Below, piece by piece: positions 37,675 through 62,596 of a stretch of 64,000 nt of DNA. Each line of letters begins with the position of its first letter. Within the stretch, counting starts at the first letter, position 1. The position numbers were made by a program, and so were the translations under genes. The stretch lies in contig NZ_DS544873.1 of assembly GCF_000154725.1 (NCBI RefSeq), positions 2,803,397 through 2,867,396 of the forward strand. Reading direction: 5' to 3'. The notes beneath the pieces were generated by a model. It searched no databases and had not been told where the DNA came from. It saw only the letters and a program-made list of their open reading frames with translations. This DNA is from Kordia algicida OT-1. GTDB taxonomy: Bacteria > Bacteroidota > Bacteroidia > Flavobacteriales > Flavobacteriaceae.

Positions 37675-37746
37675 TTTTTATCCTCTTTTCGTTTCAATTA
37701 CACTTCAACAAGCTCAGTGTACTTTGTTCCTTTTTTCTTTTTTGAC

Positions 37747-39095: not shown

Positions 39096-39418
39096 GACAG
39101 TATAGGTATGAACTATTTTTTTACAAATTAACGGCATAGAAAAGGAAGATGCAAGTATTTTGCGATGATTTTTATGCGATAACGTTTTCGCATCTTGACT
39201 TTGCTTGGTTTGATGGGGTTTGCATCTCGACTGCGCTCGATGTGACAGGTTGTTTGTTGTTTGAAACTTTGAGTATTATTTAGGACTTTGCATGAACTTT
39301 AGGGTTCGTAGCTGTTCTCGATATACCAAATCAGAGATTTGGCATTTGATCTGACGGTTTGAAAATGGAATTTGAATTGTTTTACTTTTTTAACTTTTCA
39401 ACTTATAAACTCACAAAC
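39096..39418. other. intergenic with dispersed repeats
   Basis: Upstream of the riboswitch. Contains GACTTTGCTTGG and CTCGACTGCGCTCGATGTGA palindromic pieces (39197-39245) and TTGTTTGTTGTTTG. Promoter for the metH unit is expected near 39100-39150 but not distinct. Confidence 0.4.
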
Positions 39419-47533: not shown

Positions 47534-48589
47534 TTAATAGATCGTTTGAACCGTTTCTCTTTTGGCTTCTTTTTTGGAACCGTCAAATCCTTCTACTCCA
47601 GAAACTGTAGTGTATTTCATAACATATTTTTTCCCTGGATTGATGCGTTGATAAGCGCTTTGACACATAACTGCCGCTTCATGAAATCCAGAAAGTATCA
47701 GTTTTAGTTTTCCTTTGTACGTATTAACATCTCCAATTGCATATACGCCCGGAATGTTGGTTTGGTAATCGTATGAGTTATCTACTTTAATGGCATTTTT
47801 TTCAATTTCTAATCCCCAATCGCCCAACGGACCAAGTTTTGGAGATAGTCCAAATAATGGAATGAAATGATCTACTTCTAAAAAAGCTGGTTCTTCTCCT
47901 TTTTTCTGAACCGTAACTCCTGAAAGTTCATTTTCCCCATGCAAATCTGTTATTTCTGCAGGTGTAATCAGGTTAATTTTTCCTTGGTTTTTGAGTTCCT
48001 GAACTTTTTCAACAGAATCCAATGCACCACGAAATTCGTTTCTTCTGTGCACTAAGGTAACTTCCGAAGCAACATCTGCTAGAAAGATTGACCAATCTAA
48101 AGCAGAATCGCCGCCACCAGCAATGACTACTTTTTTGTTGCGATATACTTCTGGATCGCGAATGATGTATGCCACGCCATTGTCTTCATATTTTTGAAGG
48201 TTTGCAATAGGTGGTTTTCGCGGTTCAAACGAGCCCAATCCGCCTGCAATGACAACCACAGGCGCGTGATGTTTTGTTCCTTTGTTTGTGGTCACTATAA
48301 AGGTATCGTCTTCTAATCGCTCTAAGGTTTCTGCACGTTCTCCTAAGGTAAATCCTGGTTCAAATGATTCAATTTGTTTGAGTAAGTTTTTGATTAAATC
48401 GCCTGCTAAGATTTCTGGAAAACCTGGAATGTCATAGATTGGTTTTTTAGGATATATTTCTGCACATTGTCCGCCAGGTTGTGGCAACGCGTCTATAAGA
48501 TGTGTTTTTAGTTTGAGTAATCCTGCTTCAAAAACTGTAAAAAGTCCTGTAGGTCCAGCTCCGATGATGAGTATGTCTGTGTGTATCAT
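47534..48589 (-). CDS. ferredoxin-NADP+ reductase-like flavoprotein
   Basis: 351 residues, thioredoxin-reductase-like fold without the redox CxxC. FAD motif IIGAGPTGLFTVFEAG (6-21), QPGGQC (about 37-42), NAD(P) motif VVIAGGGDSALDW (about 150-162) and the second FAD motif GVYAIGDVNTY (about 283-293). It resembles the YumC-type ferredoxin/flavodoxin-NADP reductase. Adjacent to the ferredoxin gene; together they would supply electrons to sulfite reductase. Confidence 0.85.
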   Translation of the reverse strand: MIHTDILIIGAGPTGLFTVFEAGLLKLKTHLIDALPQPGGQCAEIYPKKPIYDIPGFPEILAGDLIKNLLKQIESFEPGFTLGERAETLERLEDDTFIVTTNKGTKHHAPVVVIAGGLGSFEPRKPPIANLQKYEDNGVAYIIRDPEVYRNKKVVIAGGGDSALDWSIFLADVASEVTLVHRRNEFRGALDSVEKVQELKNQGKINLITPAEITDLHGENELSGVTVQKKGEEPAFLEVDHFIPLFGLSPKLGPLGDWGLEIEKNAIKVDNSYDYQTNIPGVYAIGDVNTYKGKLKLILSGFHEAAVMCQSAYQRINPGKKYVMKYTTVSGVEGFDGSKKEAKRETVQTIY

Positions 48590-48698
48590 TTTTAATAATA
48601 GTATTGAGATTTTAGTATTGAGTATTTAGATTTTATTGTGTTTTTAGATTGAGCTTGTGATTCTGAATCAAGTTCAGAATGACGTTCCCAATTGCTTG

Positions 48699-49280
48699 TT
48701 ATTTTTCTTCTAATAAGGTTTCTGTGATTTCGTTGAGTGCGTTTACTTTGTATTCAAAATCACCTTTGAGTCGTTTTCGATAACTGTGTAAGTTTTTTAC
48801 CAATTCGTTGATATTTTCTGGAATGATTTGTTCAAAAAACTGTCGCAAGCGTTTTGCCGTTGTGGGCGATTTTCCATTGGTCGATATGGCAATTTTCACG
48901 TTTCCTTTAGTGACAATTCCGCCTAAATAGAAATCGCAGTATTGTGGCTGATCGGCTAAGTTGACCAACAAACTTCTTCGTTTTGCTTCCAAAAAGATAT
49001 TTAGGTTTACCATTTGATCGTCTGTCGCAGCAATTACCATATGCTTTTCGTCTAAATATTCGTTGGCAAATGCATCTTTGATGAGTGTAACTGTTGGATG
49101 TGTTTTTGCAAGAACTTTAATTTCTTCTCTGATGAAAGGTGCAACTAGCGCTACTTTTGCATTCGGACTCGATTTGAGTAAGAAGCTTAGTTTTTCCAAT
49201 CCGACATTACCGCCGCCAACAATAAGAATATTGAGTTGCGCTACTTTTAAGAATATCGGATATAGTTCATTTTTCTCCAT
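48699..49280 (-). CDS. precorrin-2 dehydrogenase / sirohydrochlorin ferrochelatase-like (CysG-N type)
   Basis: 193 residues with the NAD-binding start NILIVGGGNVGLEKLSFLL (about 16-34), VIAATDDQMVNLNIF, LVNLADQPQYCDFYLGGIV and ISTNGKSPTTAKRLRQFFEQ. It corresponds to the N-terminal dehydrogenase/chelatase part of CysG. It lies 3 bases after the uroporphyrinogen methyltransferase, completing siroheme synthesis for the sulfite reductase of the same operon. Confidence 0.92.
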   Translation of the reverse strand: MEKNELYPIFLKVAQLNILIVGGGNVGLEKLSFLLKSSPNAKVALVAPFIREEIKVLAKTHPTVTLIKDAFANEYLDEKHMVIAATDDQMVNLNIFLEAKRRSLLVNLADQPQYCDFYLGGIVTKGNVKIAISTNGKSPTTAKRLRQFFEQIIPENINELVKNLHSYRKRLKGDFEYKVNALNEITETLLEEK

Positions 49281-49283
49281 AGC

Positions 49284-50060
49284 TTAGATTACTTTTTGTA
49301 ATGGAAATGTTTTTTTATTGATTGCTATTTGATTCTTCACTTGTTGCATTGCTTCATTTACCACTTCCCCAATCACAATGATTGCAGGAGCCGCCAAGTT
49401 TTGATCTTTTACTTTTTTTATGATAGAATCTACCGTTCCAAAAACTGATTTTTCGTTATCAGTTGTTCCGTTTTGAATGATTCCTACTGGCATTTTGTGT
49501 TTCCCTTCATGTTTGAATAGTGTGACAATTTCCGAGAGTTTACTCATTCCCATAAGAATGACTACCGTGGCAGAAGATTGTGCCGCCAAAGCAACGTCTT
49601 TTGAGAGTTTCCGTGCCGAAGTTGTACCTGTGATGACCCAGAAACTTTCAGAAATACCGCGTTTTGTCAATGGAATATTTGAATATGCAGGAACCGCAAT
49701 TGCAGAAGTAATTCCAGAGATTACAGCCGTTTCCAATCCGTAGTTTTTTGCATATACTACTTCTTCTGCTCCACGCCCAAATATGAATGGATCGCCACCT
49801 TTTAAGCGTACTACATGACCCGATTTGTATGCGTTTTGCACAATAAGTTCATTGATTTCATCTTGACTGTATTTGTGGAATCCTTTGCGTTTTCCCACAA
49901 AAATATGTTCCGCACTTGACGCATATTGCAACAATTCTCTGTTTACCAACGCATCATATAGTACAACATTGGCATCTTGTAGTGCTTTGACTCCTTTGAG
50001 CGTGATGAGTTCTGGATCGCCAGGTCCTGCGCCCAATACGGTTAGTTTTGGCTTATGCAT
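49284..50060 (-). CDS. cobA: uroporphyrinogen-III C-methyltransferase
   Basis: 258 residues, SUMT family: VLGAGPGDPELITLKGVKAL (8-27), YDALV, VRLKGGDPFIFGRGAEEV (about 82-99), GITSAIAVPAYSNIPLTKRG, and VILMGMSKL. Makes precorrin-2 for siroheme. Its start overlaps the end of the sulfite reductase gene by 8 bases, a sign of translational coupling. Confidence 0.95.
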   Translation of the reverse strand: MHKPKLTVLGAGPGDPELITLKGVKALQDANVVLYDALVNRELLQYASSAEHIFVGKRKGFHKYSQDEINELIVQNAYKSGHVVRLKGGDPFIFGRGAEEVVYAKNYGLETAVISGITSAIAVPAYSNIPLTKRGISESFWVITGTTSARKLSKDVALAAQSSATVVILMGMSKLSEIVTLFKHEGKHKMPVGIIQNGTTDNEKSVFGTVDSIIKKVKDQNLAAPAIIVIGEVVNEAMQQVKNQIAINKKTFPLQKVI

Positions 50061-52161
50061 GAGTCAACTCCTCCTTTCTATACGTTTTTAGTTGTTGTAA
50101 AAACCAAACTGCATCTCGCAAGTAACTTTTGGCAAAAATTGCAGTTGGTTCGTTTTGCTGAATTTGATAGACAAATGTTGCAAAAGTGTCTGGCAATTCA
50201 ATTTTTTTTGTCGCCACAAACACTTCATCAAATTGATTGATAATCGTTGCATGCGAATTCGTTTTTTGCTGTGCTGAGAGCAATAACGCTTTCGCGGAAT
50301 TGACAATGGCAGCGTAACTATGATAGATACTGTCACTATATACTTCATCTTTCAATGCCGCCGAAGCATTTTCGATTTTTTCTTCACTTTCTAGAAATAG
50401 TGTTTCTACCAAATCGATTACGACACCAGCACATTCTCCAATTCCAACGGCTTTTACATATGGTTTTTCATGTCCCCAATCGATATAATCGTCTTCTGCT
50501 AATGCTGAACTGTCTGATAATGGTTTTAATAATTGGTAGAAGTATGATTTTTCTTTTCGTTCGTAGTAACTTAAGAATGATTCTTCTGCTAGCGCGTTCA
50601 TTTTGAAGTCATCTAGAATTTCTCGCAATGCAGCTGGTCCTCGTTTGCTTGGAATTTTTAATACTTTGTCTGCAAAACGACCATTTCCATCGCCCAAAAT
50701 ACCGCCACCCAGTAATATTTGTAATGCTGGCGCCACCAATTTCCCAGATTTTATCGTCATTCCTTGAAAGCCAATTTCTGCCATATTGTGCTGTCCGCAA
50801 GCATTCATACAACCACTTATTTTGATAGTTATGTCTTTTGTGGTAATGAAATCCTTGTATTCGGTTGCGATTACTTTTTCTAATTCGCGCGCAATTCCTG
50901 TACTGCTTGCAATTCCGAGATTACAAGTGTCTGTTCCTGGGCACGCTGTGATGTCTATGAGTTTGTTATAACCTGTTTCAGCAAATCCAAGTTTTGTGAG
51001 TTCTTGATAGAAAAATGGCAGTAATGCTTCTTTTACATGGCGAATGAGTATGTTTTGACGCAACGTAAAACGCAATTCATCCGCAGCATATTTTTTGATT
51101 AAGTCTGCTAATAATCGAGCTTTGTCTGTGTAAAAATCGCCTAAAGGTACGCGAATTCCAATCGCAAAAAGTCCTGGTTGTTTTTGAGGAATTACATTCG
51201 TTTCTTTCCAGTATTGAAAGGCTGTCGCATCAAGTATAGTATCAAATGTATACGAATGTTCTTCAAACGTTGGTGCAATGTCAAAAGCTGTTGTATCAAT
51301 ATTGACTTTTGTTTGAGACAGCGCTTTTCGTTCCGCATTTACCAATTTTATAAAAGCTTCCAAGCCAAGATCTTTGATTAGAAATTTCATCCGTGCTTTT
51401 CCTCGTTTTGCACGTTCGCCATGACGATCAAAAATGCGCAATACACTTTCTATTAACGGAATGATTTCATCTGAAGCTAAAAACTCATAGAATACATCTG
51501 CATGTCGTGGTTGTGAGCCCAATCCGCCACCGAGCAAAACTTTAAAACCACGTTTTCCGTTTTGAATTTTAGCAATAAATCCAAGATCGTGAATGTACGT
51601 AAGTGCCGTATCTTTTTCGGTTGCTGAAAAAGCAATTTTGAATTTCCTACCCATTTCTTGGGAAATTGGATTTCGCAAGAAGAATTTGAACGTTGCATCC
51701 GCATACGGCGACACGTCAAAAGCTTCTTCTGGGTCAATTCCTGCGGTTTCACTTGCTGTAATGTTTCGCACCGTATTTCCGCAAGCTTCTCGTAAGGTGA
51801 TGTCATCTTTTTCAAGTTGTGCCCATAATTCTGGCGTTCGATCGAGACTTACATGGTGAATTTGAATGTCTTGTCGTGTGGTAATGTGCAATCTTCCTGT
51901 GGAATATTCGTCAGCAACATCGGCAATTCTGTGTAATTGCGCACTTGACACTTTTCCGTATGGTAGTTTGATGCGAATCATTTGTACGCCATGTTGTCGT
52001 TGTCCGTACACGCCACGCGCTAAACGAAGACTTCTAAATTTTTCTTCATCTACTTTTCCTTCTTTGAATTCGCGAATTTTTCGTTCTAATTCAATGATGT
52101 CTTTTTCGACAATCGGGTTTTCTATTTCAGTTCTAAAGCTTTGCATTTGTTTGGTTTTCAA
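50053..52161 (-). CDS. ferredoxin-type sulfite (nitrite/sulfite family) reductase with C-terminal extension
   Basis: 702 residues. Residues about 1-490 are the siroheme/4Fe-4S reductase: ferredoxin-like half domain, RQHGVQMIRIKLPYG, TGRLHITTRQDIQIHHV, then cluster ligands in TACPGTDTCNLGIASSTG and SGCMNACGQHNMAEIGF. The last about 190 residues (SFLSYYERKEKSYFYQLLKP ... DAVWFLQQLKTYRKEEL) are helical and look like a HEPN-type extension seen in Bacteroidota homologues. Context (cysN/D/H, siroheme genes, Cys-rich leader peptide) argues for sulfite rather than nitrite. Expression is probably controlled by the attenuator just upstream. Confidence 0.9.
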   Translation of the reverse strand: MKTKQMQSFRTEIENPIVEKDIIELERKIREFKEGKVDEEKFRSLRLARGVYGQRQHGVQMIRIKLPYGKVSSAQLHRIADVADEYSTGRLHITTRQDIQIHHVSLDRTPELWAQLEKDDITLREACGNTVRNITASETAGIDPEEAFDVSPYADATFKFFLRNPISQEMGRKFKIAFSATEKDTALTYIHDLGFIAKIQNGKRGFKVLLGGGLGSQPRHADVFYEFLASDEIIPLIESVLRIFDRHGERAKRGKARMKFLIKDLGLEAFIKLVNAERKALSQTKVNIDTTAFDIAPTFEEHSYTFDTILDATAFQYWKETNVIPQKQPGLFAIGIRVPLGDFYTDKARLLADLIKKYAADELRFTLRQNILIRHVKEALLPFFYQELTKLGFAETGYNKLIDITACPGTDTCNLGIASSTGIARELEKVIATEYKDFITTKDITIKISGCMNACGQHNMAEIGFQGMTIKSGKLVAPALQILLGGGILGDGNGRFADKVLKIPSKRGPAALREILDDFKMNALAEESFLSYYERKEKSYFYQLLKPLSDSSALAEDDYIDWGHEKPYVKAVGIGECAGVVIDLVETLFLESEEKIENASAALKDEVYSDSIYHSYAAIVNSAKALLLSAQQKTNSHATIINQFDEVFVATKKIELPDTFATFVYQIQQNEPTAIFAKSYLRDAVWFLQQLKTYRKEELTHA

Positions 52162-52168
52162 GAATTAA

Positions 52169-52204
52169 AAAAGTCCTTATGAATGGTGTTTCAAAAGGAC
52201 TTTT
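52169..52204 (-). terminator. attenuator terminator upstream of sulfite reductase
   Basis: Minus strand AAAAGTCCTT ... AAGGACTTTTTTAATT, ending 8 bases before the sulfite reductase start. Its first arm continues as TCCTTTTG, which can pair with CAAAAGGA (52237-52244) at the end of the leader peptide gene. Confidence 0.85.
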
Positions 52205-52230
52205 ATTGAGTTATGTATATGAGTTTTACG

Positions 52231-52314
52231 TCATGTTCCTTTTGGTGTACGAAAAATGTGAGAGCAACACATACAGTTGCAGTTCATGATATGTTTGTTT
52301 GAAGTTTTCATCAT
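52231..52314 (-). CDS. Cys-rich leader peptide of sulfite reductase
   Basis: 27 codons, ATG ATG at 52309-52314 to TGA at 52231-52233, between cysN and the reductase. Residues 12-17 read CNCMCC: four cysteines and one methionine of six, the end products of this pathway. The last codons (PKGT, stop) contain CAAAAGGA, an 8-base complement of the first arm of the terminator 27 bases downstream. A ribosome halted at Cys codons would leave this segment free to disrupt the terminator. There is no other apparent role for so short a frame. Confidence 0.85.
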   Translation of the reverse strand: MMKTSNKHIMNCNCMCCSHIFRTPKGT

Positions 52315-52382
52315 ATTTGATGTTGTTTTGTTTTTCTTAATTTTATTTTTAGCCTAACTGTCAAATCGAGTGCAGTCGAGAT

Positions 52383-53630
52383 TTATTTAATAAACCCAAC
52401 GCCTGCGGTTGTATTGGTTTGTAAATCGATCAAGATGAAACCACCGTTGTATTTGTTATCTTGATAACTATCATAAAATAACGGTTTGTTGAGTTTGAGC
52501 TGAATGTTGCCAATTTCATTGAGTTGCAATTGAGACGCTGCTGTTTTTTCTACTGAAAAATTGGTTTCTTCAATCGTATCTACTTCTACAATTTTTGCCA
52601 AGACATTGTGAACGCCGTGTTGCAAACCATATTTTGTAGCTGCTGTCAACGGTTTTTTGTCCATCCAACAAACGGTAGCTTGCAGTTCTTTTGCAATTTT
52701 TGGTGGTTCATTGGTTTTTACAATCATGTCGCCTCTGCTCACATTGACATCATCTTCCAGCGTAAGCGTGATGGAACTTCCTATTCCTGCTTTGTCAAAT
52801 TTTTCATCATAAAAATAGATTTCTTTTACTGTTGATTGTGTTCCTGAAGGTAGCACGGTAACTTGATCGCCTACAGAGATTTCGCCACCATATAGTTTTC
52901 CCGCATATCCTCTAAAGTCATGATAATCTTCTGTTTTTGGTCGGATGACTGTTTGTACAGGAAAACGCGTTTGTGCTTCTTCATAGACATCTTGCACCTG
53001 AATTTCTTCTAAGTGTTCCACCAAGGTTTTCCCTTTGTACCAAGTCATATTTTGTGATGATTTGACTACGTTGTCTCCTTGCAGCGCGCTTACAGGAATG
53101 CAGGTTATGTTTTGTTCTTTGTAAGTAGATTTTGAGATAAGTTCCTGAATTTCTTGTTGAACTGCATTGTATTTTTCTTCTGAGTAATCGACCAAATCCA
53201 TTTTATTTACCGCAATAATAATGTCTTTTATACGTAATAGATTGTTGATGTAAAAGTGACGCGATGTTTGTTCAATGACTCCTTTTCTGGCATCAATGAG
53301 AATGATGGCTACTTGTGAGGTTGATGCGCCCGTAACCATGTTTCTAGTGTATTCTACATGTCCTGGCGTATCGGCAATGATGTAACTTCTGTGTTGTGTT
53401 GAAAAATAGATATGTGCCACATCGATGGTGATTCCTTGCTCGCGCTCTGCGACTAATCCGTCGGTTGCGAGTGAAAAATCTAGATAGTCAAATCCTCTTT
53501 GTTTGCTCTTTTTTTCTATGGCTTCGAGTTTGTCGTCTGTGAGCGATTGTGTATCGTACAGAATTCTACCAATTAAGGTACTTTTTCCATCATCGACGCT
53601 TCCTGCGGTTGCTATTTTTAGTACTTCCAT
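52383..53630 (-). CDS. cysN: sulfate adenylyltransferase subunit 1 (GTPase)
   Basis: 415 residues: G1 AGSVDDGKSTL (9-19), switch II DTPGHVEYTRNM (about 89-100), NKMD (about 144), then two beta-barrel domains of the EF-Tu type. GTP hydrolysis drives ATP sulfurylase CysD. No APS kinase (CysC) domain is fused. A dispersed GAGTGCAGTCGAG element abuts the stop codon. In operon after cysD (90-base gap). Confidence 0.95.
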   Translation of the reverse strand: MEVLKIATAGSVDDGKSTLIGRILYDTQSLTDDKLEAIEKKSKQRGFDYLDFSLATDGLVAEREQGITIDVAHIYFSTQHRSYIIADTPGHVEYTRNMVTGASTSQVAIILIDARKGVIEQTSRHFYINNLLRIKDIIIAVNKMDLVDYSEEKYNAVQQEIQELISKSTYKEQNITCIPVSALQGDNVVKSSQNMTWYKGKTLVEHLEEIQVQDVYEEAQTRFPVQTVIRPKTEDYHDFRGYAGKLYGGEISVGDQVTVLPSGTQSTVKEIYFYDEKFDKAGIGSSITLTLEDDVNVSRGDMIVKTNEPPKIAKELQATVCWMDKKPLTAATKYGLQHGVHNVLAKIVEVDTIEETNFSVEKTAASQLQLNEIGNIQLKLNKPLFYDSYQDNKYNGGFILIDLQTNTTAGVGFIK

Positions 53631-53720
53631 TTTTTTATGCTAGCTGTTAGCTTGTTCTTATTTATTTTCTGCTAAAGGCTAATCGCCAATAGCTAAGGGC
53701 AAAATTTTCTAAAGAAAATT

Positions 53721-54626
53721 TTAAAAATATCCTTGTTGTTTTCTTTTTTCCATGGCTGCTTCCGAGCGTTTGTCATCAATTCGTGCGCCACGTTCTGAAA
53801 TGGTAGATTGTCGTATTTCTTGTACTACCGAAGCAATGTCGTATGCGTTTGAGAGTACTGCTGCCGTACAACTCATGTCACCAACTGTTCTAAACCGAAT
53901 GACGCGTTCTTCTGTTTTTTCATCTTCTTCACGATAGACAACATCATCATTTGCAGACCAGATTAATCCGTCTCTTAAAAATGTTGCTCGTGTGTGTGCA
54001 AAGTAGATGGATGGAATTTCAATGTTTTCTTTTTCGATGTAACTCCACACGTCTAGTTCTGTCCAATTGGATATTGGAAATACACGTACATTTTGTCCAT
54101 GATTAATTTTCCCGTTGAGCATATCAAATACTTCTGGGCGTTGATTTTTTTCATCCCATTGTCCAAAGTCATCTCTTACGGAAAAAATTCGTTCTTTGGC
54201 ACGTGCTTTTTCTTCATCGCGTCGCGCGCCACCAATACAAGCATCAAAACCAAATTCTTCTATCGCATCTAATAGGGTTTCCGTTTGCAGTATGTTTCTG
54301 CTTGCGTATTTCCCTGTTTCTTCTTGTACTTTTCCCGCGTCAATATTGTCTTGTACGTTTCTTACGATGAGTTGTAAGCCTAGTTTCTTTACAAGTCTGT
54401 CACGAAATTCAATAGTTTCCGGGAAATTGTGACCTGTATCAATGTGCAATAGTGGAAACGGAATTTTTGCCGGAAAGAAGGCTTTTTGCGCCAATCTTAC
54501 CAACGTAATCGAATCTTTTCCTCCAGAAAATAACAATACTGGTTTTTCAAATTGTGCGACGACTTCTCTGAAAATATGTATCGCTTCACTTTCTAAAATG
54601 TTTGTTTGTAATACTTTCGTACTCAT
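53721..54626 (-). CDS. cysD: sulfate adenylyltransferase subunit 2
   Basis: 301 residues, PP-loop ATPase: LFSGGKDSITLVRLA (about 33-47), IGGARRDEEKARAKERIFS (about 136-154), NWTELDVWSYIEKENI. Forms APS from sulfate and ATP together with CysN. 10 bases downstream of cysH. Confidence 0.96.
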   Translation of the reverse strand: MSTKVLQTNILESEAIHIFREVVAQFEKPVLLFSGGKDSITLVRLAQKAFFPAKIPFPLLHIDTGHNFPETIEFRDRLVKKLGLQLIVRNVQDNIDAGKVQEETGKYASRNILQTETLLDAIEEFGFDACIGGARRDEEKARAKERIFSVRDDFGQWDEKNQRPEVFDMLNGKINHGQNVRVFPISNWTELDVWSYIEKENIEIPSIYFAHTRATFLRDGLIWSANDDVVYREEDEKTEERVIRFRTVGDMSCTAAVLSNAYDIASVVQEIRQSTISERGARIDDKRSEAAMEKRKQQGYF

Positions 54627-54636
54627 GTTTTTGTTC

Positions 54637-55251
54637 TTATGAATGCAGTCCGCATTCTCTGTTTTCTAATACTTTTGTTGGATCGAAATAGTTGAATTCG
54701 TTTGGAATTTGATGTGCTTCTAGGTATTCGTCTAATTGCGCATCTGACCAATGATAGAACGGACTTACTTTCAAAACGCCATCTTTTCCAAGAGAAACAA
54801 TATCTATAGAATCGCGAAAAGCAGTTTGTCCTTTTCTTAGGTTTGTAAACCAAATTTTTGGCTTATGAAATTCCATTGCTCGTTTAAAAGGTTCTAACTT
54901 TACTTGTTGGGTAAATAGTTGATGCTTTTCATCGTTTACATCTGGAATTCCCAATACAATGTCTCTGTGTGCAGCCGTTTGTTTTGGTACATATAAATCA
55001 ATGTTTAGGTTTAATTGTTCTATTAATGTTTCAGCATGTTTGTAGGTGTTTGGCGTGTTGTAACCAGTATCACACCAAATTACGTCAATGTCTGGCTTCA
55101 CTTGTGTACACGCATGTAATATTGCACCTTCATACGGTCTGAAATTTGTAGTTACGACCGCTTTTCCTTCTTGTGAAACCGCCCAAGCAATGATTTCATC
55201 AGGTGATTTTTCACGTACTATTTCGTTTATTTTTTGAATGTCTGTTTGCAT
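54637..55251 (-). CDS. cysH: phosphoadenylyl/adenylyl-sulfate reductase
   Basis: 204 residues. PP-loop region and the C-terminal nucleophile motif ECGLHS. The CC..C-C cysteine pairs that bind a 4Fe-4S cluster in APS reductases are not seen, and no CysC is present in the window, so whether APS or PAPS is the substrate is open. Short for the family because the C-terminal region is compact. Immediately follows the DUF2061 gene (1-base gap). Confidence 0.9.
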   Translation of the reverse strand: MQTDIQKINEIVREKSPDEIIAWAVSQEGKAVVTTNFRPYEGAILHACTQVKPDIDVIWCDTGYNTPNTYKHAETLIEQLNLNIDLYVPKQTAAHRDIVLGIPDVNDEKHQLFTQQVKLEPFKRAMEFHKPKIWFTNLRKGQTAFRDSIDIVSLGKDGVLKVSPFYHWSDAQLDEYLEAHQIPNEFNYFDPTKVLENRECGLHS

Positions 55252-55252
55252 T

Positions 55253-55504
55253 TTATTTTCCCCATTTTATAGTGTTCCACAATCGTTCATGAAAAAAGTA
55301 TAGCACCATTTTTGTCAACATTTCTATAGATCCAATCGCAAAAGCCATTGTTAAGGTTCCTGTAATTAGCCAAGAGATTAAAACCGTATCTAAGGTTCCG
55401 ATAACTCTCCAACTGATTGATTTTACAAAGCTTCGCAATGGTTTTTCAGAGTGAACATCTGTTTTGTAATTGCTTTTATTTTTGATTATTTGATTTAAAA
55501 TCAT
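55253..55504 (-). CDS. DUF2061 small membrane protein
   Basis: 83 residues with one DUF2061 domain: KPLRSFVKSISWRVIGTLDT, then membrane segment TVLISWLITGTLTMAFAIGS (about 40-59) and a second hydrophobic stretch MVLYFFHERLWNTIKWG. Such genes often sit in sulfate-assimilation operons of Bacteroidota; role unknown, possibly related to sulfate entry. First gene after the IR-bearing promoter region at 55557. Confidence 0.85.
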   Translation of the reverse strand: MILNQIIKNKSNYKTDVHSEKPLRSFVKSISWRVIGTLDTVLISWLITGTLTMAFAIGSIEMLTKMVLYFFHERLWNTIKWGK

Positions 55505-55555
55505 GTCAATTTTTATTAAAATACTATTACTCTATAGACTTACTAGATTATTTAT

Positions 55556-55591
55556 CAAATGTATTTCTTTTTTTTAGAAAGACATACATTT
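55556..55591 (-). promoter_or_regulatory. promoter with overlapping inverted repeat for the cysH block
   Basis: Minus strand: AAATGTATGTCTTTCT - spacer - AAGAAATACATTT, an inverted repeat whose right arm includes TACATTTG (55556-55563), an exact -7 box. No TTG -33 box, so an activator bound to the repeat may replace it. It lies 52 bases upstream of the DUF2061 start. Confidence 0.55.
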
Positions 55592-55617
55592 TTTATTAAA
55601 AAGTGTTGAACTTTTTT

Positions 55618-56784
55618 TTAGCTTAAAGCTTGATTTAAATCTTCAATGATATCATATACATTTTCCAATCCTACAGAAACCCGAATGAGTCCATCTGTAA
55701 TACTGGTTTCCAATCGATCTTCCACCGATAGTTTACTGTGCGTGGTTGATGCAGGATGCGTTACAATACTTCGTGCATCTCCCAAATTTGCTGATAGTGA
55801 ACACATTTTTATGCTATTTAAAAATTTTCTTCCTGCATCTACGCCACCTTTTACTTCAAACGAAACTACGTTTCCGCCAAGTTTCATCTGCTTTTTAGCA
55901 ATTTCGTATTGTGGATGCGACTTTAAGAACGGATATTTTACCCAATTTACTTGTGGATGTTCTTCCAGAAATTCTGCAACTTTTAAGGCATTTTCACAAT
56001 GACGATCTACACGAACAACTAAAGTTTCCAAACTTTTTGATAAAACCCACGCATTGAATGGCGATAATGCTGGACCTGTGTTTCTTGCGAATAGATAGAT
56101 TTCACGAATTAAATCGGCACGACCAACCGTTACGCCACCTAATACACGACCTTGTCCATCAATGAGTTTTGTTGCGGAATGAATGACCAAATCTGCTCCA
56201 AATTTGATCGGTTGTTGTAAATATGGTGTGGCAAAACAGTTGTCTATGATGAGAATTAGGTTGTGTTTTTTGGCAATTTTTCCTAAAGTTTCTAGATTGA
56301 TGATATCAACTGCTGGATTTGTTGGTGATTCAGCATACAATACTTTTGTATTTGGCTGAATTAAAGATTCAATTTTGTCAATTTCGTTGACTTTGAAATA
56401 GCTCGTTTCAATGTTCCATTTTGGTAAAAACTTTGTAAATAGACTATTTGTTGAACCAAAAATAGATCGTGAAGATACAATATGATCGCCACTATTGAGC
56501 AATGCTGCAAAGGTTGAAAATACTGCCGACATTCCTGTTGCAAAAGCGTGTCCGGCTGCTGCACCTTCTAATTTACAGATTTTTGATACAAATTCGGAGG
56601 TATTCGGATTCGTAAATCGGCTATAAATATTCCGTTGTTTTTCTTCCGCAAAGGAAGCGCGCATGTCTTCAGCATCTTCAAAGACAAAGCTTGAGGTTAG
56701 GTATAACGGATTGGAATGTTCAAGAAAACTGGAGCGTTCGAGTTGTGTTCGAATCGCTTGAGTTTCTATATGTTGTGAGTTCAT
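55618..56784 (-). CDS. O-succinylhomoserine sulfhydrylase / trans-sulfuration enzyme
   Basis: 388 residues, Cys/Met metabolism PLP family. AGHAFATGMSAVFST, SRSIFGSTNSLFTKFLPKWN, PLP-lysine in HSATKLIDGQGRVLGG (about residue 204), and GDARSIVTHPASTTHSKLS. Closest in feel to MetZ; MetB/MetC activity cannot be excluded. It is a paralogue of MetY (60474-61769) in the same block, so two sulfhydrylases may use differently activated homoserine. Confidence 0.88.
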   Translation of the reverse strand: MNSQHIETQAIRTQLERSSFLEHSNPLYLTSSFVFEDAEDMRASFAEEKQRNIYSRFTNPNTSEFVSKICKLEGAAAGHAFATGMSAVFSTFAALLNSGDHIVSSRSIFGSTNSLFTKFLPKWNIETSYFKVNEIDKIESLIQPNTKVLYAESPTNPAVDIINLETLGKIAKKHNLILIIDNCFATPYLQQPIKFGADLVIHSATKLIDGQGRVLGGVTVGRADLIREIYLFARNTGPALSPFNAWVLSKSLETLVVRVDRHCENALKVAEFLEEHPQVNWVKYPFLKSHPQYEIAKKQMKLGGNVVSFEVKGGVDAGRKFLNSIKMCSLSANLGDARSIVTHPASTTHSKLSVEDRLETSITDGLIRVSVGLENVYDIIEDLNQALS

Positions 56785-57050
56785 TTTTTGTTGTTTGTTT
56801 AGGTCGCTTTGCTCCTGTTATGAGTTGGTCGCTGCGCTCCGTTGTGTGTTTTGTTGTTTGTTGTTTGTTAATATGTTTTTTCTACTTTTTATTTCAAAAC
56901 ATAAACTGTTCAACTTATAAACCTATAAACTTCAAAATTGTTAATTTACTTGCTGGAACCTCATGAAACTTATATTGTTTCCAAGTATTCTCGACTTCGC
57001 TCGAATTGACACTTTTTCAATTTAACATTCAACATTTAGCATTTATTATT
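56785..57050. other. intergenic between thrA and metZ-like gene
   Basis: 266 bases with TTGTTTGTTGTTTG repeats (56846-56870) and a CTCGACTTCGCTCGA palindrome (56993-57007). No Cys/Met-rich leader frame found here. Confidence 0.45.
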
Positions 57051-59453
57051 TTAAAGTTTTTCTGTTAATCGTAAGATATCTCCAAAAACGCCTCTTGCCG
57101 TAACTGCAGCGCCTGCGCCAGCTCCTTGAATGACTAAAGGTTGTTCTTTGTAAGCTTCCGTGTAAATTTCAAAAATAGAGTCTGAACCTTTTATTTGTCC
57201 CAAAGCACTATTGCTTGGCACAGAAATTAATTTGACTTCCAAAACTCCTGTTTCCGTTGATAAATCGCCCACATAACGCAATACATGATTTTTTTGTTGA
57301 TTGGCTTTGATGAGTTTGTAGGTTTGATCTAAATCGGTAATGTTATTTTTAAATTTTTGTAAACTGATCGCTTGTAAGTGTACTGGCAATAGGTTTTGAA
57401 TGGTAATGTCTGAGAATTCGTGTTTTAAATCCAATTCTCTGGCAAGGATTAATAATTTTCGTGCAACGTCATTTCCCGATAAGTCTTCACGCGCATCAGG
57501 TTCGGTAAAACCTTTTTCCTCAGCTTGTTTTAAAACGGTACTAAATTCTACATCTTCCACAGAAAACGTATTGAAAAGATAACTTAACGAGCCTGAAAAT
57601 ACACCGCGAATTTTCTTTATTTTTTCGCCCGATTTGTGCAATAGTTTTATCGTATCAATCAATGGTAAACCAGCTCCTACATTGGTTTCGTACAAATAAT
57701 TTTTTTGATGCTTTTTCAGTTCTTTTCGCAACGTATCATAAAATGAGTACTCAACTGTGTTCGCAATTTTATTTGCCGAAACCAAATCGAAGCCATTATT
57801 AACTAAACTTATATAATTATGTATAAATTCTTTGCTCGCTGTTGTATCAACCGCAATTAAATTTTCGAGATGATTGTTTTTTGCGTAATCGATAATTTGT
57901 TGCACCGTGTACGCAACTTTTTCTTTTGGAAATGTTTCTTGCCAATTGTCAGCAATTCCGTTTTTGTCTAAATATACATGTTGTGAATCGGCGACAGCAA
58001 ATACATTTAGCTTGATGTTATTTTTGTCTAATATGTCTTTTTTGCTTTGCACGATTTGATCGAGTAATGTTCCACCAACTAAACCTTTTCCAAAGACAGC
58101 GATGTTTATTTTTTTAGAGATTCCGAAGATTTGTCCATGAATCACATTGATTGCTTTGTGCAATTGTGTTTTTTTCACTACCAAACTCACGTTTTTTCCT
58201 GAAACCGTATTGTTAAATAGAATCGGAACAATTTGATTTTTGATTAATGCATTGTATGGTTTGTGAAATTCGCTTAAGTTTTGCCCAACAATCGAGATGA
58301 CTGCAACATCATCAATGACAGAGATTTTGTTGACATCTTTGGTATAGAAATCATTTTCAAATTCACGTTCAAGCGCAATGATTGCATTGGAAGCTTGATT
58401 GGCATCAATTACCAAACCAATTCCACGTTCGGAAGAACCTTGCGAAATGATACTTACATTGATATCTTTTTCTCCGAGTGTTTTAAAAATGCGCGCATCT
58501 ACACCAACTCTACCCAACAAGCCTCCGCCTTCTAAGTTTACCAAGGCAACATTGTCTAATACTGAAATCGATTTGATTCCTTTTTTGATTGTTTTTTGCT
58601 TGATGATTGTTCCTTCATCCGAACTGTTGAATGTGTTTAAGATGCGTAAAGGAATGTTTTTTTCAATGAGTGGAACAATGGTTTTTGCATGTAGAATGTT
58701 TGCGCCAAAGTTTGCCAATTCGTTCGCTTCATTGAATGAGAGTTCTTCTATTTTTTTCGCATCCGCAACCAAATCTGGATTTGCTGTAAAGATTCCGTCT
58801 ACATGTGTGTAATTTTGTAATTCTTCCGCATCTAAAAAATTAGCCAATAAAGCTGCCGTGTAATTGCTTCCGTTTCTTCCAAGTGTTGTGGTTTCATTGT
58901 TTTGATTCGATCCAATAAAACCTGTGACGATGTTTACTGTTGTTCCATTGTGCGATTTGAAATGATTGATAACATTTTTTCGCGATATTACATCTAACGG
59001 ACGTGCATTTCCAAAAACATTATCTGTTTTTATAAGGTTTCTGGCATCAGTAAAATGTGCATTGACACCTTCTTTTTTGAGCAGATTGGTAACCAATTTT
59101 GCTGCAATTATTTCGCCTTGAGAGACCACTTGATCTTTTATTTTTTCGCTGTAATCGCCCAATAGTGAAACACCTTGAAATAAATTTTCTAATGTTGTAA
59201 ATTCCTCTGAAAAATCAACAGCTCTGTCTATTTGACTTTGATAGGCTTTAAACGCTGTAAATTGCTCATGATAGGATTCTTTATGAGCGGCTTTTTCTAA
59301 CATTTCCAATAACTCATCGGTGGCATTTCCACGTGCAGATAACACAACGGCAATATCTTCTTGCTGCTTTGCTTTGTCTCTTATGATTTGAATCGCTGTT
59401 TTGATTCCTTTTCCGTTAGCGAGTGATTTTCCGCCAAATTTTAATATTTTCAT
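57051..59453 (-). CDS. thrA: bifunctional aspartokinase / homoserine dehydrogenase
   Basis: 800 residues. Aspartokinase about 1-290 (start KILKFGGKSLANG; TTLGRNGSNYTAALLANFL), two ACT-type regulatory segments about 310-455 (ISIVGQN in the second), homoserine dehydrogenase about 460-800 (INIAVFGKGLVGGTLLDQI, NVGAGLPLIDTIKLL, EDLSGNDVARKLLILARE). Provides homoserine to MetX 20 bases upstream. In this position it serves methionine more than threonine supply. Confidence 0.95.
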   Translation of the reverse strand: MKILKFGGKSLANGKGIKTAIQIIRDKAKQQEDIAVVLSARGNATDELLEMLEKAAHKESYHEQFTAFKAYQSQIDRAVDFSEEFTTLENLFQGVSLLGDYSEKIKDQVVSQGEIIAAKLVTNLLKKEGVNAHFTDARNLIKTDNVFGNARPLDVISRKNVINHFKSHNGTTVNIVTGFIGSNQNNETTTLGRNGSNYTAALLANFLDAEELQNYTHVDGIFTANPDLVADAKKIEELSFNEANELANFGANILHAKTIVPLIEKNIPLRILNTFNSSDEGTIIKQKTIKKGIKSISVLDNVALVNLEGGGLLGRVGVDARIFKTLGEKDINVSIISQGSSERGIGLVIDANQASNAIIALEREFENDFYTKDVNKISVIDDVAVISIVGQNLSEFHKPYNALIKNQIVPILFNNTVSGKNVSLVVKKTQLHKAINVIHGQIFGISKKINIAVFGKGLVGGTLLDQIVQSKKDILDKNNIKLNVFAVADSQHVYLDKNGIADNWQETFPKEKVAYTVQQIIDYAKNNHLENLIAVDTTASKEFIHNYISLVNNGFDLVSANKIANTVEYSFYDTLRKELKKHQKNYLYETNVGAGLPLIDTIKLLHKSGEKIKKIRGVFSGSLSYLFNTFSVEDVEFSTVLKQAEEKGFTEPDAREDLSGNDVARKLLILARELDLKHEFSDITIQNLLPVHLQAISLQKFKNNITDLDQTYKLIKANQQKNHVLRYVGDLSTETGVLEVKLISVPSNSALGQIKGSDSIFEIYTEAYKEQPLVIQGAGAGAAVTARGVFGDILRLTEKL

Positions 59454-59473
59454 TTCGTTTTGTGTTGTCCTTG

Positions 59474-60508
59474 TTAGATCGATGATTTTTGAACTTGAAA
59501 TATGTTTCTGAGTAATAGACTCAATTGTCCAAATTCCATTAAAAATGCGTCGTGTCCGTGAATGGACTGAATTTCGTCGTGATATATGTTTTCTTTGACA
59601 CGTTTGAGTCTCCTGAAGGTTTCAACATCTTCATCTGGTGAAAAAAATATGTCACTGTTGATACTTATAATGTGAATGTTTCCTGTAATTTTTGAAGCTA
59701 CTTTTTCAAGTGATGTTCTACCTCTAGTAATATCGATGGTTTTTAAAAGCTGATTCATCAGTTTGTATGCTGCCAATTGATAGCGTTGTTGCAATTTTTT
59801 TCCGTGATGTACCAACCAACTTTCGGTATTGAATAGTTCTTTTTCTGTATCGCGTGTTCGCTGAAATTTTACTTTGAGTGAAAAAGGTGTACGATAGCAC
59901 AACATGGCATGAATACGAGCATCTTCAATCGGATTGCTAGAGTTTTCAAGGATACGTTCCTGCAAAAAGCAATTTCCAATTAACCAATCGGTCGATTTCC
60001 AATCGGCTGCAATCGGAATTAGATTTTGAATCAAATTTGGTTCTAAGACTGCCATTTCCCAAGCAATTCCACCACCTAACGATCCGCCAATAGCGGCAAA
60101 AAGTTTGTTGATTTTTAAATATTCTAATCCTCTGATGAATAGTTTAGCAATGTCTCTTGCCACAAAGTCCTTATAGTGTTTTATCAATCCTGTTTCTTGT
60201 GAAAAACCATTGCCTGGAATGTCGAAACTCAAAATTTTAAAATGATTGGTATCAATACATTTACCATCTCCAATAAGCTTATTCCACCAACCATTTACAC
60301 CTGTAACTTCTGAGTTTCCTGTCAGTGCATGATTTACCAAAACGATTGGCGCATCTGCACTATCCGAACCTACAAGTTGGTAACTCAACTTTAGGTTTGG
60401 ATAGTACGCGCCGCTTTCTGTAAAGAAATCTGAGATCGTAATATGTGTTATTTTCTGTCTCAAAATAGCTGTTTTATGATGCTGGAATTCCCGCAGTAAT
60501 TTTTTCAA
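59474..60508 (-). CDS. metX: homoserine O-acetyltransferase
   Basis: 344 residues, alpha/beta hydrolase of the MetX type: VLVNHALTGNSEV (about 56-68), nucleophile Ser in AAIGGSLGGGIAWEMAV (about 139-155), ISINSDIFFSPDED (Asp) and IHGHDAFLMEF (His) near the end. The only ATG in frame is at 60508, giving a 35-base overlap with metY; the first about 20 residues (KKLLREFQHHKTAILRQ) are not typical of the family, so a non-ATG start nearer ITHITISDFFTES is possible. Supplies O-acetylhomoserine to MetY. Confidence 0.92.
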   Translation of the reverse strand: MKKLLREFQHHKTAILRQKITHITISDFFTESGAYYPNLKLSYQLVGSDSADAPIVLVNHALTGNSEVTGVNGWWNKLIGDGKCIDTNHFKILSFDIPGNGFSQETGLIKHYKDFVARDIAKLFIRGLEYLKINKLFAAIGGSLGGGIAWEMAVLEPNLIQNLIPIAADWKSTDWLIGNCFLQERILENSSNPIEDARIHAMLCYRTPFSLKVKFQRTRDTEKELFNTESWLVHHGKKLQQRYQLAAYKLMNQLLKTIDITRGRTSLEKVASKITGNIHIISINSDIFFSPDEDVETFRRLKRVKENIYHDEIQSIHGHDAFLMEFGQLSLLLRNIFQVQKSSI

Positions 60509-61769
60509 ATACGGTTTGTAAGTCTGCTTTTAAATCTTCTACATCTTCCAAGCCAACTGATAATCGAATTAAATCTTGCGTCACACCTGTAGAAACCTGT
60601 TGCGCTTCCGTTAATTGTTGATGCGTCGTACTTGCTGGATGAATGATGAGCGATTTTGTGTCTCCAATATTGGCTAAGAGTGAGAATACTTTTGTTTCGT
60701 CGGCAATACGTTTTGCGGCTTCAAAACCTGCTTTGATTCCAAATGTTACGATGCCGCTTTGACCTTTTGGCAAGTATTTCTCAGCTAATGCTTTGTAGTT
60801 GCTTGTTTCCAATCCTGGATAGTTTACCCAAGCAACAGCTTCTTGTGTTTGCAACCATGTTGCTAATTCGAGTGCGTTTTGACTATGCTGTTTGATTCTG
60901 ATTGGCAATGTTTCTAATCCTTGAATGATTTGAAATGCGTTGAACGGACTTAATGCCGAACCAAAATCACGCAATCCTTCAATACGTACTTTGGCAATGA
61001 ATGCGGCTTCTTCTAAAGCTTCACTATAAATTAATCCGTGATATCCTGCAGATGGTTCTGTGAATTCTGGGAATTTCCCGTTGGTCCAATCAAAAGTTCC
61101 TGCGTCAATGATTGCGCCTCCGAGTGCAGTTCCGTTTCCGTTGATGTATTTTGTAAGTGAATGAATGACAATGTTTGCGCCGTGTTTGATAGGATTCAGT
61201 AAGTAAGGTGTGGCAATGGTATTGTCGACTATGAGAGGGATTTTGTTTGCTTTGGCTTGTGCGGAAATTTTTTCAATGTCTAATACATCTAATTTTGGAT
61301 TTCCAAGTGACTCGATGAAAACGGCTCTTGTGTTTTCTTGTACCGCATCTGTAAAGCTATTTTCTTCTGCTGGATCTACGAATGTTGTGGTAATTCCGAG
61401 TCTTGGCAAGGTTACATTTAGCAAATTATACGTTCCGCCATACAGACTGTTGGAAGCTACAATATGATCGCCTGCTCTGAGCAATGTGAGCAATGTAGTA
61501 GCAATGGCAGAAGTTCCTGATGCGGTAACTACGGCTGCGATTCCACCTTCTAATGAAGCTAAACGCTGTTCTAAAATATCGTTTGTTGGATTGTTGATTC
61601 TGGTATAAATATTTCCTGGTTCTGCTAAGGAAAATAAGTTGGACGCATGATCGGAGTTGTTAAACACATATGCTGTTGATTGATAAATTGGAACAGCTCG
61701 TGTGCCGCCGTTTTGCGTTGTGTCGTGTCCTGAATGTAATGCTTTTGTTGCGAATTGTTGTGTACTCAT
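60474..61769 (-). CDS. metY: O-acetylhomoserine sulfhydrylase
   Basis: 431 residues from ATG 61769 (MSTQQFATKALHSGH). The frame extends to 61871, but those 34 residues are Lys/Arg-rich leader sequence with no family match and begin 7 bases from a terminator. PLP lysine in HSLTKYINGNGTALGG (about 205), AVVTASGTSAIATTLLTLLR, FSLLANIGDTKSLIIHPAST. Joins sulfide to O-acetylhomoserine to form homocysteine. Preceded by two tandem leader-peptide/terminator units. Confidence 0.93.
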   Translation of the reverse strand: MSTQQFATKALHSGHDTTQNGGTRAVPIYQSTAYVFNNSDHASNLFSLAEPGNIYTRINNPTNDILEQRLASLEGGIAAVVTASGTSAIATTLLTLLRAGDHIVASNSLYGGTYNLLNVTLPRLGITTTFVDPAEENSFTDAVQENTRAVFIESLGNPKLDVLDIEKISAQAKANKIPLIVDNTIATPYLLNPIKHGANIVIHSLTKYINGNGTALGGAIIDAGTFDWTNGKFPEFTEPSAGYHGLIYSEALEEAAFIAKVRIEGLRDFGSALSPFNAFQIIQGLETLPIRIKQHSQNALELATWLQTQEAVAWVNYPGLETSNYKALAEKYLPKGQSGIVTFGIKAGFEAAKRIADETKVFSLLANIGDTKSLIIHPASTTHQQLTEAQQVSTGVTQDLIRLSVGLEDVEDLKADLQTVFEKITAGIPAS

Positions 61770-61879
61770 GTTTTCTTGTTTGTGTTTGTTTGCACTTCGA
61801 TTTCGCTCAGTGCGCTTTGATTTGTTTATTATTTTATGTCTATTTTTTGAATTTACTTTTTTGATTTTCAACCAACGAA

Positions 61880-61920
61880 AAAAGGTCCTTTTGGAAGTGT
61901 ATTACCAAAAGGACCTTTTT
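61880..61920 (-). terminator. attenuator terminator proximal to metY
   Basis: Minus strand AAAAGGTCCTTTTGG ... CCAAAAGGACCTTTTTT: 15-bp stem and T-run, 110 bases before the metY start and 17 bases after the leader peptide stop. Confidence 0.9.
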
Positions 61921-61937
61921 TTTACATGATAAATAGT

Positions 61938-62060
61938 TTAATACCTATCTGGAACTTTTTGATAATAGTAAGCTTGGCTACAACACATCATGCACATAGC
62001 CATCATACAACATATTGTCATTGTTGTTTTGATTGTTGCTATTTGAAAAAATTCACTCAT
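61938..62060 (-). CDS. Cys/Met-rich leader peptide, proximal to metY
   Basis: 40 codons, ATG 62058-62060 to TAA 61938-61940. Residues 17-27 read CCMMAMCMMCC, five Met and five Cys of eleven, both products of the operon. Followed by AYYYQ and, 17 bases past the stop, by a strong terminator. In contrast to the other leaders, I find only a weak complement (CAAAAAG against CTTTTGG) to the terminator arm, so the switch itself is less well supported. A small hydrophobic membrane peptide is an alternative reading. Confidence 0.7.
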   Translation of the reverse strand: MSEFFQIATIKTTMTICCMMAMCMMCCSQAYYYQKVPDRY

Positions 62061-62098
62061 TGGTTTTTTGAAAAAAAATTATTTTAAAATATAATCAT

Positions 62099-62127
62099 GA
62101 AAAAAGCCTCTGCAATTGCAGAGGCTT
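62099..62127 (-). terminator. attenuator terminator, distal to metY
   Basis: Minus strand AAGCCTCTGC AATT GCAGAGGCTTTTTTC: perfect 10-bp stem with T-run, 32 bases past the stop of the distal leader peptide. Confidence 0.92.
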
Positions 62128-62159
62128 AAAATTATTGTTGAATGCTTTTTTAAAGTTAG

Positions 62160-62237
62160 CTAAATACAATAGTTGTCCCCTGCGGCATCTCTGCTACACA
62201 TCATACAACACATCATATTTGAAACTTTATTAAACAT
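62160..62237 (-). CDS. Cys/Met-rich leader peptide, distal to metY
   Basis: 25 codons, ATG 62235-62237 to TAG 62160-62162, just 20 bases after an excellent -7 box. Residues 8-14 read MMCCMMC. Downstream in the frame, GCAGGGG (62177-62183) can pair with CCTCTGC in the first arm of the terminator (one G-U), and GCAGAG also pairs with CTCTGC. Same plan as the aromatic and sulfite reductase leaders. Together with the proximal unit it would place two Cys/Met checkpoints in series before metY. Confidence 0.82.
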   Translation of the reverse strand: MFNKVSNMMCCMMCSRDAAGDNYCI

Positions 62238-62256
62238 TTTTCGTCTTTGTTTGTTA

Positions 62257-62288
62257 CAAAGGTAAAGTCATAATTATTTATTTTCCAA
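62257..62288 (-). promoter_or_regulatory. flavobacterial promoter of the metY block
   Basis: Minus strand TTG (62286-62288), 21-base spacer, TACCTTTG (62257-62264): exact consensus. Transcription would begin only a few bases before the distal leader peptide. Confidence 0.8.
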
Positions 62289-62385: not shown

Positions 62386-62395
62386 CATCTGATTT

Positions 62396-62514
62396 TTGAG
62401 GAGAAATTTGAACTGATTGCAACCTCAAGTGCTGAACTTGTTTCAGTACCTAGTTCACTAAGTCGTGGACTAGATCCTGAAATGAATTCAGGATATTTAA
62501 AAAATGCTAAAGCA
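62396..62514 (+). promoter_or_regulatory. SAM-II-like riboswitch with inserted hairpins, upstream of metK
   Basis: P1 is TTGAGG (62396-62401) / CCTCAA (62423-62428), enclosing AGAAATTTGAACTGATTGCA; this matches the SAM-II loop pattern ATTT-AA--GATTGCAA. The 3' strand AAAAAATGCTAAAGC (62500-62513) matches the conserved AAA-GCTAAA end of the pseudoknot. Between them, where SAM-II allows variable length, lie three short hairpins (62430-62451, 62451-62472, 62474-62493). A downstream CTTTAGC (62529-62535) can pair with GCTAAAG and compete. Fits SAM feedback on SAM synthetase. Confidence 0.72.
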
Positions 62515-62596
62515 GTAATTTTATACTTCTTTAGCCGACAAAGCAATCTCTTTTTTATTTTTCCTTTCACTTTAACCATTAAAAAGAAGATTTATT

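Follow-up and report, generated by a model that had tools for sequence, protein, structure and literature searches.

In attenuators of the trp and his type, a leader open reading frame (ORF) carries codons for the amino acid of the pathway, an antiterminator arm lies within or after this ORF, and an intrinsic terminator precedes the operon. Ribosome-mediated attenuation is a known class of mechanism, and polycysteine attenuators of mycobacteria were reportedly described by Canestrari in 2020. The part of PMC1262725 available to us predicts Cys leaders before mycobacterial cys genes, with no conserved terminator hairpin at these leaders and no conserved RNA structure before actinobacterial methionine operons. 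In the accessible sections of the tandem riboswitch review PMC9481103, T box-Met elements are combined with SAM-I in both orders, and the terms attenuat, uORF and leader peptide have no match in this text. For Flavobacterium psychrophilum, the accessible portion of PMC9723704 describes strong indications that leader peptides attenuate operons for amino acids; the genes given there (pheA, hisG and others) do not include metY or cys genes, and the word "methionine" is absent from its main text. Little was found in the open-access literature on control by leader-peptide attenuation in Bacteroidota, and the titles and abstracts among the matches listed gave no description of serial Met/Cys attenuators.

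We analysed a 64,000-nt stretch of Kordia algicida OT-1 DNA (the window), in which two units, U1 and U2, lie upstream of metY. Judged from their sequences, U1 and U2 are very probably ribosome-mediated Met/Cys transcription attenuators arranged in series on one leader transcript. The leader ORF, the antiterminator arm and the intrinsic terminator are common to these units and to trp/his-type attenuators, as far as the latter are covered by the accessible parts of PMC2965389 and PMC1262725, while the Met/Cys codons, the Bacteroidota host, the two serial units and a partly supported protector (1:2) helix set U1 and U2 apart. As in the mycobacterial polycysteine attenuators, a Cys-codon leader stands before cys genes, whereas in U1 and U2 terminators and antiterminators are clear, Met is dominant and the units are serial. 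T box-Met/SAM-I tandems likewise place two transcription-controlling sensors in one leader, according to the available part of PMC9481103, whereas the charge sensor in U1 and U2 would be a translated leader peptide. In contrast to the candidates in the accessible part of PMC9723704, the leaders described here precede metY, and the F. psychrophilum locus of our set (L047) carries both units. Judged by the open-access papers searched, three aspects seem to be new: a specificity for Met/Cys combined with intrinsic terminators, a serial design that is conserved, and the exchange of units for SAM-I.

Organization of the metY leader region

On the minus strand of the window, a promoter-like sequence is followed by the U1 leader and terminator, the U2 leader and terminator, and metY (Table 1). 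All elements named in the original prediction were found on this strand, with recomputed coordinates within two bases. The promoter-like sequence is called Bacteroidota type on the basis of TTG/TAnnTTTG, which we take to be the promoter consensus of this phylum. Among the 722 ATG ORFs of 10-60 codons in the window (425 on the plus and 297 on the minus strand), leader 1 ranked first in Cys/Met density (7/7 residues) and leader 2 second (6/7). None of 2000 dinucleotide shuffles of the 571-nt region yielded an ORF with 6/7 Cys/Met, and a chance origin of the Cys/Met leaders is excluded. The U1 leader scored 93.6 bits with the covariance model R1 and the U2 leader 112.7 bits with R2, each window sequence being part of the training set of its own model. 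Both terminators were recovered by a dedicated stem search; a generic terminator pattern scan of the region listed terminator 1 and not terminator 2, and gave no enrichment of terminator-like sites there (7 vs 10.3 in shuffles).

Analysis of the pairing partners revealed that the GCAGGGG/CCTCTGC duplex (62183-62177 with 62124-62118), previously assigned to the metY-adjacent unit, exists and belongs to the promoter-proximal U1, with CCTCTGC forming the 5' arm of the U1 terminator. The metY-adjacent U2 has a separate antiterminator, absent from the original prediction, in which TATTATCAAAA pairs with TTTTGGTAATA (61910-61900) in an 11-pair duplex of -8.9 kcal/mol. The region presents small reading frames dense in Met and Cys codons, intrinsic terminators that separate these frames from metY, and antiterminators that can compete with the terminators, with the 5' arm within reach of the ribosome.

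Table 1. Features of the metY leader region and of the cluster behind it (window positions)
Feature	Position	Strand	Basis
Promoter-like TTG-N21-TACCTTTG	62257..62288	-	sequence
U1 leader ORF MFNKVSNMMCCMMCSRDAAGDNYCI, MMCCMMC	62160..62237	-	sequence, ORF ranking
U1 antiterminator 5' arm GCAGGGG, within leader ORF	62177..62183	-	covariation, alignment A3
U1 intrinsic terminator AAGCCTCTGC-AATT-GCAGAGGCTTTTTT	62100..62127	-	stem search and generic pattern scan
U2 leader ORF MSEFFQIATIKTTMTICCMMAMCMMCCSQAYYYQKVPDRY, run ICCMMAMCMMCC = CCMMAMCMMCC	61938..62060	-	sequence, ORF ranking
U2 antiterminator 5' arm TATTATCAAAA	61957..61967	-	11-pair duplex, covariation A4
U2 intrinsic terminator; 61910-61900 pairs with U2 antiterminator arm	61878..61921	-	stem search
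metY, O-acetylhomoserine sulfhydrylase, first gene	60474..61769	-	NCBIfam TIGR01326, 629.6 bits, above cut-off
Downstream genes on the metY strand, including metX-like, aspartate kinase/homoserine dehydrogenase, O-succinylhomoserine sulfhydrylase-like, DUF2061, cysH-like, cysD, cysN, nitrite/sulfite reductase, uroporphyrinogen-III methyltransferase and two more	47534..60508	-	profile matches
U3 leader ORF MMKTSNKHIMNCNCMCCSHIFRTPKGT, Cys-rich	52231..52314	-	R2 match, 47.1 bits
U3 terminator	52167..52204	-	stem, folding

A third unit inside the cluster

The genes behind metY include several of methionine and sulfur metabolism; MetX, O-succinylhomoserine sulfhydrylase, CysH and sulfite reductase fall below the NCBIfam curated cut-offs and are named by resemblance. 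Inside the cluster, a further unit, U3 (52314-52167), sits before the nitrite/sulfite reductase gene. Its leader (5/7 Cys/Met) is the densest small minus-strand ORF after U1 and U2, equalled by one plus-strand ORF, and TCCTTTTG at 52199-52192 pairs with CAAAAGGA at 52244-52237 in the leader tail. The search for this gene covered 11 Kordia genomes, of which 5 gave no match at the cut-off; where the gene was found, it has a leader before it in 6/6. At the other 18 nitrite/sulfite reductase loci, a clear Cys-rich leader was seen only in L161, with the gene start mis-set in L144; Cys leaders before nitrite/sulfite reductase also occur in L213 and L225. In a hand-picked list, the Cys share of Cys+Met is 0.32 for U1, 0.39 for U2 and 0.62 for sulfite reductase leaders, and this rise toward sulfite reductase suggests that leader composition fits the genes behind the leaders. 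In two genomes (L195, and L210, which is the same place as L194), U1 stands, with no U2 nearby, ahead of genes for a hexapeptide transferase and a PLP enzyme, which are probably a serine acetyltransferase and a cysteine synthase.

Conservation of the units and replacement by SAM riboswitches

A scan of genome contigs gave 559 candidate metY loci, of which the best 80 were analysed; the closest metY among relatives, from a Kordia MAG, is 97% identical. R1 was built from 27 U1 and R2 from 30 U2 sequences, both models were run on the window and the 80 loci, and a unit was counted where a match of at least 50 bits lay upstream of metY on its strand. Both units were found at 23 loci, U1 only at 9, U2 only at 9 (including L048, with merely 167 nt of upstream sequence) and neither at 39. 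These counts restate the direct ORF scan, because most positives built the models (26/32 for R1 and 29/32 for R2). The expectation that the peptides are kept in relatives with the same operon was borne out, since 5/5 other Kordia metY loci and 18 more of the 80 have both units. Besides Kordia, the genera with conserved units include Flavobacterium, Christiangramia and Salegentibacter, and leaders, terminators and antiterminators are conserved together.

Comparison with Rfam revealed SAM-I at 38 of the 39 loci without units and SAM-II at the remaining one (L080), before metY and on its strand; in L045, SAM-I lies about 1.4 kb upstream. At the 41 loci with one or both units, no SAM riboswitch was found on the metY strand in the upstream sequence scanned. 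Opposite-strand SAM-II matches before a divergent gene occur at loci both with and without units. In the window, the Rfam scan gave neither SAM-I nor SAM-II on the metY strand of the leader, the only SAM-II match being sub-threshold and on the other strand, and T-box is absent among the Rfam matches listed. Rfam Phe_leader was rejected (27.3 bits vs a gathering score of 55).

The SAM-II-like element of the window (62392-62520, plus strand) precedes a divergent metK and reaches 42.4 bits against a gathering score of 44, a threshold that many relatives pass at the corresponding site. Four Flavobacterium loci (L028, L036, L041 and L071) contain, between U2 and metY, a small ORF whose C-terminal motif is similar (LLFQMY in L036 and L041); the first 43 residues of the L036 ORF had no Pfam match. 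Several Flavobacterium loci carry a degenerate second U1+U2 array downstream of metY (L013:4405-4737, L031:5609-5965 and others), which is followed by an apparent metY remnant in L031 and by SAM-I and a metX-like ORF in L013.

Covariation of the antiterminator helices

The U1 antiterminator was examined in alignment A3 (79 rows, 78 distinct), in which this helix is not part of the model's structure. The helix between GCAGAGG in the leader tail and CCTCTGC in the terminator is paired in 90.0% of cells vs 36-51% in slid controls, with a covariation score of 0.211 vs 0.091 when shuffled and at most 0.098 when slid. Cells changed on both sides number 24 vs 3.5 in shuffles, a count reached by 0/500 shuffles; slid controls gave up to 19 such cells (at +2), near the observed value, and matched neither the paired cells nor the covariation score. 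Less favourably, changes on both sides occur in 4 of the pairs, a value reached by 25/500 shuffles. The change is three-way, with CCTCTGC, CCGCTGC, CCCTTGC and CCTTTGC each accompanied by a fitting antiterminator and terminator 3' arm. Five rows are gapped at the arm, some misfit (L175 and L187, for example), and the seventh and last helix position pairs in only 34/65 rows. Of the 63/78 rows scored, 60 have the arm inside the ORF, in the three frames 39, 18 and 3 times, and 3 more have it past the stop codon; the arm is read in all three frames, indicating that the tail is kept as RNA and not as peptide. A candidate protector (1:2) helix, TGCAATA/TATTGCA, pairs in many U1 rows and is weak in the window's own sequence.

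For U2, alignment A4 (79 rows, 76 distinct) also contains U3 sequences and a small number of rows from U1 or unrelated sites. The helix (TATT)RCCAAAAG/CTTTTGGY(AATA) is paired in 85.7% of cells vs 28-58% when slid, with a covariation score of 0.230 vs at most 0.113 when slid and 0/500 shuffles reaching it. Both-sided cells number 27, which is equalled at slide -2, where the paired cells and the covariation score are not matched. After removal of seven U1 or unrelated rows, the native U2/U3 duplexes of 68 non-redundant sequences scored -12.04 vs -9.35 +/- 0.26 kcal/mol when permuted (0/2000); U3 of the window scored only -4.7 in this set because the segment taken clipped its arm. Terminator conservation alone does not account for the U2 helix, because part of it sits in the terminator loop.

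Folding with the ribosome as a constraint and a proposed mechanism

Nine units were folded with an imposed ribosome footprint, whose sizes were assumed from general knowledge. Before the terminator 3' arm exists, the antiterminator had a probability of 0.96-1.00 in most stalled states, with lower values for U2 of the window (0.41-0.70) and of L037 (0.83-0.98). In U1 of the window it reached 0.98-1.00 with a stalled ribosome, and 0.00 both with the ribosome at the stop codon and without a ribosome. With the ribosome at the stop codon, 8/9 units gave 0.00-0.04, the exception being U1 of L004 (1.00). In 5/9 units, U3 of the window among these, the antiterminator forms at 0.83-1.00 without a ribosome; for these units, the model would have the polymerase read through a leader that is not translated. 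Full-length equilibrium folding favoured the terminator in 8/9 units whatever the state of the ribosome, stalling included, and antitermination would therefore have to be kinetic.

We propose that transcription would begin within a few bases past 62257, so that RNA polymerase would reach U1 early. When Met-tRNA and Cys-tRNA are charged, the ribosome translating the leader would pass the Met/Cys codons to the stop codon and cover the antiterminator arm, upon which the terminator would form and transcription would stop. When Met or Cys is short, the ribosome would stall on the Met/Cys run, whose end lies 12 nt before the U1 arm, and the arm would pair with the 5' half of the terminator before the 3' half is made, allowing the polymerase to pass. 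Past U1, the polymerase would meet the same test at U2, so that metY and the genes behind it, if co-transcribed, would be expressed only after two readings of Met/Cys shortage; the Cys-weighted U3 may repeat the test inside the cluster before sulfite reductase. The series may sharpen the response, and we infer a steeper or two-input response, in line with the original prediction.

Alternative readings of the leaders and of their arrangement

An internal Met is present in every listed leader (40 U1 and 32 U2) and Cys is absent from 8/40 U1 leaders, which would agree with methionine alone as the signal and with incidental Cys codons. We consider this reading unlikely, as Cys occurs in 32/32 U2 leaders and 9/9 sulfite reductase leaders, its share is higher before sulfite reductase, and CC lies inside the Met/Cys run of U1 in the window. 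The peptides are also short, conserved and Cys/Met-rich, as working small thiol- or metal-binding proteins could be; this is hardly credible, because the order and number of Cys and Met vary among leaders, the reading frame of the tail is not constant, and the tail covaries as RNA with antiterminator and terminator. Conserved structure beyond the terminator in Flavobacterium U2, the hairpin TTATAG/CTATAA, could point to a ligand-binding riboswitch of a new class in which the ORFs are incidental. This hairpin was not detected in the U2 sequences of Kordia and Christiangramia, the Rfam scan gave no family at or above the gathering score for the metY leader, and the Met/Cys codons are the most constant feature, which together make such a riboswitch very improbable.

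U1 and U2 might also be independent attenuators, with U2 using its own promoter and the units not in series. In Flavobacterium L208, a TonB-dependent receptor gene (L208:646-3492, Pfam), whose substrate is perhaps a sulfur compound, lies between U1 and U2, and four further genomes have a U1-U2 spacing of 3.2-3.3 kb as in L208, with a similar ORF start behind U1. Directly before U2, TTTGG-N15-22-TANNTTTA, a pattern devised after viewing some sequences, occurs in 6/8 U2-only loci. Kordia has a conserved TATATTTT after terminator 1, but its TTG partner is not kept in L002, L003 and L005. Against a separate promoter for U2, neither TTG-N17-23-TANNTTTG nor TANNTTTG alone was found between the units in any of the 24 tandem loci. 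Before U1, by pattern match alone, TTG-N17-23-TANNTTTG is present in 12/24 tandem loci, including 6/6 Kordia (18-22 nt before the U1 ATG in 11/24 and 50 nt in L059), and the full pattern is missing in 12/24. Independent action of the units is improbable; the L208-type spacing and the promoter-like sequence before U2 suggest that the units are separable modules, which appear in series in Kordia. Serial Cys/Met leader-peptide attenuators, as originally predicted, are upheld at the level of sequence by the anatomy, by the co-conservation of leaders, terminators and covarying antiterminators, and by a promoter pattern that lies before U1 and not between the units.

Distribution beyond the metY set

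R1 matches at E<=1e-5 were found in 29/299 genomes of the family, two of which (L184 and L188) were rejected for having no Cys/Met leader at the match, and in 16/296 genomes of the phylum, all within the family. R2 matched 74/299 genomes at E<=0.001, of which only 17 reached E<=1e-6; the weaker matches were set aside, as the loci inspected among them mostly had no leader. In the genome itself R1 gave 20 matches at E<=1, the U1 site being the only one not below 38 bits and one match covering that site on the other strand; the further matches were rejected, since no Cys/Met leader was found at them on the match strand. Five other TGYTGYATGATG sites were also rejected, as they lie within longer ORFs on either strand (short ORFs being listed for the plus strand only).

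R2 matched 20/296 phylum genomes at E<=1e-6, two of them outside the family, in an order that does not belong to the window's class; metY was found in 32/58 genomes of this order, including 5/5 of one family. Examination of 31 distinct metY loci of these 32 revealed two Cys/Met leaders with terminators and no SAM-I at 6/31, one leader followed by SAM-I at 13/31 (L257, L258, L267, L271, L273, L274, L276-L279, L283, L285 and L290), a leader only at 3/31 and SAM-I only at 9/31. These are threshold counts alone, a leader being accepted at 4/7 Cys/Met with a terminator or at 5/7; the single leaders of L257, L258, L271 and L290 reach only 4/7, and the hairpin of L285 has no T run. The antiterminator is often GAAGGGC with GCCCTTC, and native duplexes scored -12.8 vs -10.33 +/- 0.35 (0/5000, n=28), with weak duplexes in L271 (-5.1) and L257 (-7.0).

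We favour, by a modest margin of confidence, the view that across Bacteroidota a Met/Cys tRNA-charging leader may serve as a modular first checkpoint upstream of metY. It would be coupled serially to another copy of itself, as a pseudo-cooperative gate, or to SAM-I, as a two-input gate for tRNA charging and SAM. If so, methionine, together with cysteine, would join the amino acids sensed by classical attenuation, and two natural architectures would be on record, one with two translated sensors in a row and one that joins a translated sensor to a SAM-I riboswitch. Attenuation of this kind depends on a ribosome that closely follows RNA polymerase; the checkpoint would therefore also imply tight transcription-translation coupling in Bacteroidota, and the units offer a direct test of it. 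Because relatives have exchanged the sensor ahead of metY, it also becomes possible to test how RNA switches evolve.

Elsewhere in the window, a methionine synthase in two ORFs (the homocysteine-binding part and the rest; 34963-38748, minus strand) lies behind a SAM-I element at 38995-39097 on the same strand, and a Flavo-1 RNA (51.9 bits) is found at 38865-38935 on the plus strand. With the attenuators, the SAM-II-like element and SAM-I, three kinds of Met-related RNA switch occur within 25 kb.
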